Shown piece by piece: positions 3,304-6,300 of a stretch of DNA of 64,000 nt. Origin of the DNA: Urechis unicinctus. Lineage: Eukaryota > Annelida > Polychaeta > Xenopneusta > Urechidae. Numbering within the stretch: position 1 is the first letter of the stretch; every line of letters begins with the position of its first letter. Position numbers and translations under genes: made by a program. The stretch is taken from positions 33,648,592-33,712,591 of the forward strand of contig CM067343.1 of the NCBI GenBank assembly GCA_034190875.2, in the 5' to 3' direction. A model generated the notes under the pieces. The model saw only the letters and a program-made list of their open reading frames with translations. It was not told the origin of the DNA and did not search any database.

Positions 3304-6300
3304 GTTCGTACTTAAGGTTGATTCTCATCTCTCTTCTGCCACTTCTAACCTAATAATCCTCCTGAGTTTAATTGTAGATTCCTCTTGCATCTTAACCATT
3401 CATGTATTTACTTTTCTCTGTGGGCACCCTGGTGTGTAATTTCTCATATTTCTGGCTTTCAATATTCCCTATGATGACATAAGGATAGATAAGCCATGAT
3501 ATTTCTTGATTCGATAGCGTAGTTCCCAGTGAAGTCTCTGTTCGTTGATTCGATAGCGTAGTTCCCGGTGAAGTATCTCTTCGTTGATTCGTTGGGAGTA
3601 TCGGAAGTCTGTTCGTTCTTCGAGAGCGTAGTTCCCGGTGAAGTCTCTGTTTGTTGATTCGATAGCTTAGTTCCCGGTGAAGTCTCTGTTCGTTGATTCG
3701 ATAGCGTAGTTCCCGGTGAAGTCTCTGTTCGTTGATTCGATAGCGTAGTTCTCGGTGAAGTCTCTCTTCGTTGATTCGATAGCGTAGTTCCAACCAATAT
3801 TTCTGGTTATTTGATGTCTCTTCGTTGATTCGATAGCGTAGTTCAGAGTGTTTACAGTACTGGTCTTTTTGACAATATGCCAAACTTGCGAGCGCGAGCC
3901 GCCTAAGACCGCCGAACCACTATCTTTATACACCTGTTTTATATAGATAGTGGCTTGGCACCCAAAATCGGTTTGGGGTTCGGAAGCTTGGCGCCTTTGG
4001 TTTTTTTCTATACATTTCGCCAATATATACGTTATGATTACTATTGTTGATATCATAACGTCTGAAATTATCTCGGTCGATTTCTCGGATGAGGATGAAA
4101 GGTTTATTCAGCGACGTTATGCGTGTATGGAACAGTGCCAAGTTTTTACAAGTTTTTGGGGTTGATATGTGAGTTTTTGTATAGGTGTGATTCAAGCCAA
4201 GTTGTACACGATCGAGCTGTTGTATGTGTGTGTTTATAGCCCAAGTTGTACACTATCGAGCTGTTGTATGTGTGTGTTTATAGCCCAAGTTGTACACTAT
4301 CGAGCTGTTGTATGTGTGTGTTTATAGCCCAAGTTGTACATGATCGAGCTGTTGTATGTGTGTGTTTATAGCCCAAGTTGTACACGATCGAGCTGTTGGA
4401 GCTTGTGTCATCGCACTTCAACTTGAAGGAGAAGGAATACTTCGGACTCGCATACAAAGATGACACGTAAGTGCAACTTATCAGTCCCTTATCATAGCGG
4501 CTGATAGCGGCCATGGCTCCCCAGCGTAACAAGGGGCCATGAGGAATGTTGCCTAAGGGTTCATGGTCTGCTCAGCATACTGGCGTGTACACACATAACA
4601 CAGTGACACTCATCTGGAGGCATTCAGATAAGGAGGCTGTCCTAGATGCTCGGATCTCCAAATTATTTTTCTGAACCCCGTCATCAGTCTTGATTTAGTT
4701 GATTTAAGTTGTTGAAGATGCTTGGATCCTAGCTCGGGATGGCTCGTATGACATCTGTTGGGTGATTCCTTTTCCATATGACACACAAAAATACCACGTT
4801 GTGTAACTTAGAACTCGTTACATTCATCTAAAATTTAACAGACTTCAGATATGCCCCCTCGGCTCTTGATATATCCCCTCGTGTGACGTTCAACATTTAA
4901 GACCTTGTAAGTCGGTCATGTTTTGACACGTAGTAAATTCCTGTGAATTATCGTTTACACGTGTATTCAATGATGAATCGACCTCCAAATCAGTTCATCA
5001 TTGATGTTTATCCTGCGAACGCTCGTATCCCGACCCTCGTCATCCTGACATCGGATTCCTGGCCCCATTCAATATATGTTACCCTTCGCTGGCTCGGATT
5101 CCGTTCTTTTGTGTTTATGGGCGTCATCCACGTCTCCTATTTGCTAACTGACAGACCGACAGATCCTCCTTATCCACTTTAACAAGCTTTTCTAAATGAG
5201 ATTGTCCTCAAGAGTTACTCAACCTCAATTCGTGGTGGGAGCGGCTTATTAATGCGGAGGGCTTTGTATCTAGGAGACCACATACCGAGCGTGACTCGAC
5301 GGCTTTTTTGGTCTCCCCGTTATTTTGTTCGCGCTGGAACTCCATTCATAAATCAAACCCTACCCCCTCGTTAACTGTTGTTGAAGCCCGGATGCGAATA
5401 ACGCCGAGTTGGGTCGAAAACCAACAGTCGATAAAAGCGGTGATTTTCGCTTTAAGGCCGTGAGTGTCTCGGGACTCATAAACACTGCGCGTCGTGTTTG
5501 GCGAGGAAAACACCTGAACTGATTGAGTCATTACTGTATCCTAGCTGGGACGTAGTACAAATCGTCTTGGGTAAAATCCAGGATAGTTGCCGTCAGCTTG
5601 TGAACGTTTAAGGTGTGTTGGGTCGCGTTTACGATCAGTGTCATACTACGCTGTCTAATCACCGCCTTTTCAGACTATACCAATAGGATAACACTTTCAC
5701 TGTGAGTCGCTCGTGGACATGGAACAGTCAACGTAGGAACGGTGTTTTTGAGTGTTGGTTCTGAGACTCGGATCTGGATATTGATTTGGTGTTCACGCGG
5801 GAAAGTGTAATCTGAAGGCAGACCACCCATATTGACAGATTTGAGGTATGTTAATTGGATTTGAGTGTGTAAGTGTATGTGTTTATGGTGTGCATGCGTG
5901 TGTGGGGGGTGTGGGTGGGGCTGAGAGTGTCTGATGTGTATGTATGTTGCGTATGCGTATGTATGTGTGTGTTGTGTGTATGTGAGTGTGCTTGCATGTG
6001 CGTGATGCGTGTAGTTATAGGATGTGTTCGCTTGTACAGGTCTGTTTTAACGCCGTGTGCTTATCCACAGTTAAAAATTAAATAGATACCTTGATTGCTT
6101 TTGTATTGCTGCACAAACCACTGGTCTTAACAACCCCCCCCCCCCCCCCCCCAGTCCTTTTGCAGCTAATATAAAGAGAATATATATTATCAACGGCCAG
6201 AGTCGAGAGGCGTTTAAGACGCTATGCGTTGGTTGATCCAAGATCTGGATAATAGAATCCGTGCGCTCTCAAAGTGAATGTAGAATATATGTTATTTGTC

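Follow-up and report, generated by a model that had tools for sequence, protein, structure and literature searches.

Across a 3' splice boundary in contig CM067343.1 (assembly GCA_034190875.2) lies a tandem array of a 44-base-pair (bp) unit, in a putative gene of the FRMD4 type. The analysis covered the 64,000 nucleotides (nt) from 33,648,592 to 33,712,591 (hereafter, the window; positions below are counted from its first letter). The features at the boundary are as follows.

3238..3303, plus strand: upstream coding exon ("exon 1"), 66 nt, donor GTTCGT, placed by sequence and frame
4118..4184, plus strand: possible older, decayed unit copies (spacer, exon part, spacer), from local alignment to the unit, modest support
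4197..4222, plus strand: first copy of the exon portion, 26 nt and shortened by one C at the start, behind the acceptor context gattcaag
4222..4227, plus strand: donor-like GTATGT formed at a unit junction, recurring at 4266, 4310 and 4354
4223..4266, plus strand: unit 2, acceptor tract joined to the exon's first 27 nt, which begin at 4240
4267..4310, plus strand: unit 3, acceptor tract joined to the exon's first 27 nt, which begin at 4284
4311..4354, plus strand: unit 4 (exon start 4328), the sole unit with CATGATC, which holds a branch-point-like ATGAT (A at 4343)
4355..4398, plus strand: unit 5, in which the acceptor tract is the real one (AG at 4370-4371) and is followed by the opening 27 nt of the authentic exon
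4372..4466, plus strand: authentic FERM_N exon of 95 nt with the donor GTAAGT, matched by Pfam FERM_N, frame continuing into 10763-10855

The host gene and its boundary array

A single open frame runs across the exons at 3238-3303, 4372-4466 and 10763-10855, and skipping the middle exon leads to a stop. The three exons with part of a fourth matched Pfam FERM_N at E=1.6e-17, and the first two alone at E=3.1e-12; overall, Pfam matches were returned for 2 of 4 queries in one set and for 4 of 10 in the other. Further along, a FERM_C-like stretch at 18161-18445 scored 22.6 bits, just below the cut-off of 23 bits, and a CUPID domain stretch (32318-32560, E=1.3e-8) lies on the same strand as the FERM exons. 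By sequence, 43 distinct solved chains matched at E≤0.001, the top ones being FERM proteins of the moesin/ezrin/radixin type. We take the pairing of FERM and CUPID as the mark of FRMD4 (FRMD4A/B), and the presence of FERM_N and CUPID on one strand fits FRMD4A/B and a putative single gene, FRMD4-like from its domain matches. The acceptor-like tttcag immediately 5' of the ATG of "exon 1" indicates that this exon may be internal.

Tandem Repeats Finder reported the array at 4197-4398 (202 bp) with a period of 44, 4.6 copies, 97% matches, no indels and a score of 383, and the spacing between copies in the repeat-finder output was 44, 44 and 44. A tandem array of such identity exceeds chance, and the score rules out a chance repeat. 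Each unit joins 17 nt of acceptor tract (the intron end) to the first 27 nt of the FERM_N coding exon, and the last copy continues into the authentic exon, which closes the array on one side and carries the reading frame onward. The exon starts at 4240, 4284, 4328 and 4372 share the same 20 nt of upstream context, ending in tttatag|CCCAAG. The first-pass annotation had described both the unit repeated over the exon boundary and three complete acceptors upstream of the real one (4240, 4284 and 4328), and both descriptions stand; the last 20 intron bases of these acceptors are the same as those of the real site. Among the seven acceptors of the gene that were inspected, the array's own included, four end in TAG and three in CAG, and the tracts are TG-rich by eye; judged against the gene's own sites, the decoys thus resemble genuine acceptors.

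Substitutions distinguish the copies, with CACGATC in copies 1 and 5, CACTATC in copies 2 and 3, and CATGATC in copy 4. At each unit junction, the last G of the exon part and the TATGTG of the tract together create a GTATGT, so that a unit can also be read as 26 nt of exon followed by an 18-nt GT...AG. The stretch upstream of 4197 resembles decayed copies of the unit, with the best local match at 4118-4184. This resemblance is of modest support: its score was reached by 12, 34, 19 and 19 of 1000 dinucleotide shuffles for four nested stretches, and in 3 of 200 shuffles when the extension was anchored. If these decayed copies are real, the array may be older than its inner copies indicate.

Likeness to mirage minisatellites

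At the level of sequence, the array matches the anatomy of the mirage minisatellites of amphioxus (BflGb6, BflGb9, Adh3 and TnC, with PGBD5 compared), in which tandem repeats of an intron/exon boundary stand beside the real exon; the behavioural marks of a mirage are length polymorphism and undisturbed splicing. In BflGb6, minisatellite-like repeats comprise the 3' end of an intron and the 5' part of exon 2, with six units in one haplotype and three in the other (PMC3087553), and as in the present array the unit spans the acceptor and the exon start. AG and GT signals occur in many units of the amphioxus mirages, as in the three upstream acceptors and four GTATGT sites found here. The amphioxus mirages also show high identity inside the array with divergence at its edge; here the inside identity is 97%, and edge divergence would depend on the putative decayed copies upstream, which have modest support. 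The gene is a different one, and the 44-bp unit falls within the range reported for Adh3 (10-72 bp; PMC3087553) and is shorter than the globin units (about 150-160 bp). The Adh3 data and globin reverse transcription PCR are reported to suggest that regular splicing is undisturbed by mirages (PMC3087553), and PGBD5 was described with imperfect repeats over its splice sites, the Adh and TnC mirages being cited there as making no aberrant mRNA (PMC3902484). The papers on mirage minisatellites that came from an open-licence literature search directed at amphioxus dealt with lancelet genes, no search having been aimed at other named animal groups.

An assembly artefact that inflated or collapsed the copy number at the tandem repeat is a concern for any such array, these being error-prone; the BflGb6 array of one amphioxus haplotype was aberrantly assembled in the draft (PMC3087553). 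A DNA search of the 1.19-Gb assembly, with a tool that skips common words, found the array once. We nonetheless regard an artefact as quite unlikely, since the copies differ from one another by substitutions and copy 1 differs at the edge, and since 202 bp is far below the typical length of a long read.

A human variant offers a looser parallel. CBS 844ins68 duplicates the acceptor of intron 7. It consists of one extra copy only, in contrast to the present array, and is a human polymorphism with known frequencies. The 68 bp are called a duplication (PMC2630376) and yield mostly normal mRNA (PMC1334203).

Splice paths and reading frames

Recomputed frames agree with those of the first-pass annotation. 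Use of the acceptor at 4328 would add 44 nt, shift the frame by +2 and meet a stop; that at 4284 would add 88 nt, with a shift of +1 and again a stop; and that at 4240 would add 132 nt, in frame, but would run into a TAG where the third unit ends. The conclusion drawn from this, that no copy other than the last is productive, is correct for any single acceptor used alone, but it had missed the GTATGT donors, which open two further in-frame paths. We enumerated only those paths that combine the five acceptors with the four GTATGT donors. When introns had to be 30 nt or longer, 16 paths resulted, and three of them stayed in frame and met no stop: the canonical path, a path that adds 69 nt through an exon at 4197-4265 and a path that adds 51 nt through two small exons. 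Both of the extra paths require the weak AAG acceptor before 4197. Lowering the minimum to 18 nt gave 55 paths, of which nine, counting the canonical path, stayed in frame and met no stop; serial 18-nt introns were set aside, since introns of 18 nt are too short for animal splicing.

The longer of these additions raises the question of whether an exon or intron is being gained here, for example with 4197-4265 as a cassette exon spliced from the GTATGT at 4266 to the real acceptor, which would add 23 in-frame residues. Such an exon is in frame without a stop and would be followed by an intron of 106 nt, and a scan with branch-point weights placed its best motif 48 nt before the AG of the 4197 acceptor. 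Gain of an intron by tandem duplication across a boundary has been proposed for the amphioxus mirages (PMC3087553) and is documented in a potato RdRp gene, where 106 RNA sequencing (RNA-seq) reads are given for the new intron (PMC4974935). As in potato, also a looser parallel, the duplication here crosses the 3' intron/exon boundary and the donor comes from a cryptic GT; in contrast to the two copies and the RNA-seq-backed intron there, the GT...AG of the present unit spans only 18 nt, a length at which splicing is improbable. The cassette would further depend on an AAG acceptor whose tract is poor, with other AGs intervening, and its 23 residues, unrelated and rich in Cys, Ser and Val, would be inserted into FERM_N. 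Nascent gain at this boundary appears very unlikely.

A second possibility is that the decoys form a regulated row of poison acceptors, which would commit a fixed fraction of transcripts to nonsense-mediated decay and thereby tune the level of FRMD4, with the copy number as the dial. In its favour, all single-acceptor alternatives are unproductive, and the three full decoys are equal to the real site over 20 nt. The human ABCA7 intron 18 variable number tandem repeat is an example of a minisatellite that contains a splice site whose use shifts the frame: its 25-bp unit carries a donor, out-of-frame transcripts retain the unit, and splicing varies with length (PMC5954066). That case concerns the donor side and about 12 to about 427 units, and the splicing effect was measured there, which sets it apart from the present array. 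The amphioxus mirages speak against a dial of this kind, being reported without splicing disturbance (PMC3087553, PMC3902484), as does the 97% identity of the inner copies, which recent turnover would give. We consider regulation by poison acceptors unlikely.

Repeat load and the fate of the array

The rate of tandem repeats was taken from 18 stretches of 10 kb (three partly N) spread over 8 contigs, with the two stretches flanking the window left out of the rate. In this sample, minisatellites (period of at least 10) made up 10,908 of 172,898 called bases, or 6.3%, in 49 arrays; the window holds 21 arrays with 5,142 bases (8.0%), one of them in the same intron as the 44-bp array.

3506..3791, plus strand: 39-bp minisatellite, 7.5 copies, from Tandem Repeats Finder

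Eight exons of the gene were placed (it has more), with about half of the 3' ends off by one or two bases, and one of their 16 boundaries lies in an array; random placement gives a probability of 0.74 for at least one, the count being biased because the gene was chosen for this array. A load of tandem repeats as high as this would probably place an array across one exon boundary or another as a by-product, and the position on a boundary of this gene is no surprise in a window so dense in repeats. Among the 11 FERM_N places in the genome, an array lay over the match at one, the window's own (L010), and at none of the other ten. Two arrays near other FERM_N matches were rejected as related to this one, a two-copy 44-bp array about 60 bp from one of them (L006, 1351-1440) and a 22-bp array near another (L011); in both the unit is unrelated by eye and the match is not reached.

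Elsewhere in the window, a 174-bp unit is tandemly duplicated at 47727-48074 (2 copies, 95%). On the minus strand, an open frame at 57262-58041 matches DUF1751 (E=1.9e-25) and is TMEM115-like, and the stretch at 49551-49832 matches Hydrolase_6, a HAD-like hydrolase (E=1.9e-8), which we take to be a possible HDHD5.

We think it likely that the array is a neutral, mirage-type minisatellite across the 3' splice boundary of an FRMD4-like FERM exon, with the last acceptor winning. The first-pass annotation had offered a splicing ruler, a switch for nonsense-mediated decay and neutral slippage as readings; neutral slippage fits best and matches the amphioxus mirages, and the ruler and the switch gained no support. 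For the ruler, no sign of a constraint on spacing was obtained, the 44-bp period being simply the length of the unit. Most likely, then, the array is tolerated rather than a built-in switch.

As a neutral minisatellite, the array would have arisen by tandem duplication, through slippage or unequal exchange, and would persist because the normal protein is still made when the last copy is used. The last acceptor would win since it is the sole copy that leads to a full-size exon, closed after 95 nt by the strong donor GTAAGT; each decoy meets a GTATGT after 26 nt, which would define too small an exon. The ATGAT of unit 4 may assist. Its A at 4343 lies 28 nt before the real AG (score 2.4), and within the array it is confined to this unit, the others showing CACTATC or CACGATC at its position. 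Occasional use of a decoy would give frameshifted or stop-containing mRNA that is removed by nonsense-mediated decay, probably at a small cost, and the copy number would be expected to differ between individuals.

Several points weigh against this account. We infer use of the last acceptor from the reading frame, and a simple rule by which the first AG after the branch point is used could let an upstream AG win. In the branch-point scan, TTTAT (3.7, above ATGAT) ends each tract and is placed alike before 4284, 4328 and 4372; GTGAT at 4190, ahead of the 4240 acceptor, equals the ATGAT of unit 4 in score; and the top score belongs to TTTAC at 4148 (4.4), ahead of the weak 4197 acceptor. The evidence on the unit 4 motif is mixed, as it marks the real site among the units only and not relative to the sequence before the array, and it is a minor point. 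One array among 11 FERM_N places also means that mirages are not shown to be common in this genome, and there is a slim chance that the copy number reflects assembly error.

Bolder readings are that an intron or exon is being born here, with the 69-nt in-frame cassette at 4197-4265 present in some transcripts, or that the copy number sets the productive share of FRMD4, and that intron gain through mirages is a general process in a genome so rich in minisatellites; we hold them to be improbable. Within one row of near-identical units, four acceptors agree in their last 20 intron bases, which makes the array a natural experiment on how the spliceosome chooses among equal 3' splice sites. If the host is not a lancelet, the array would also extend the range known for mirage minisatellites, which have been proposed to give rise to new introns.
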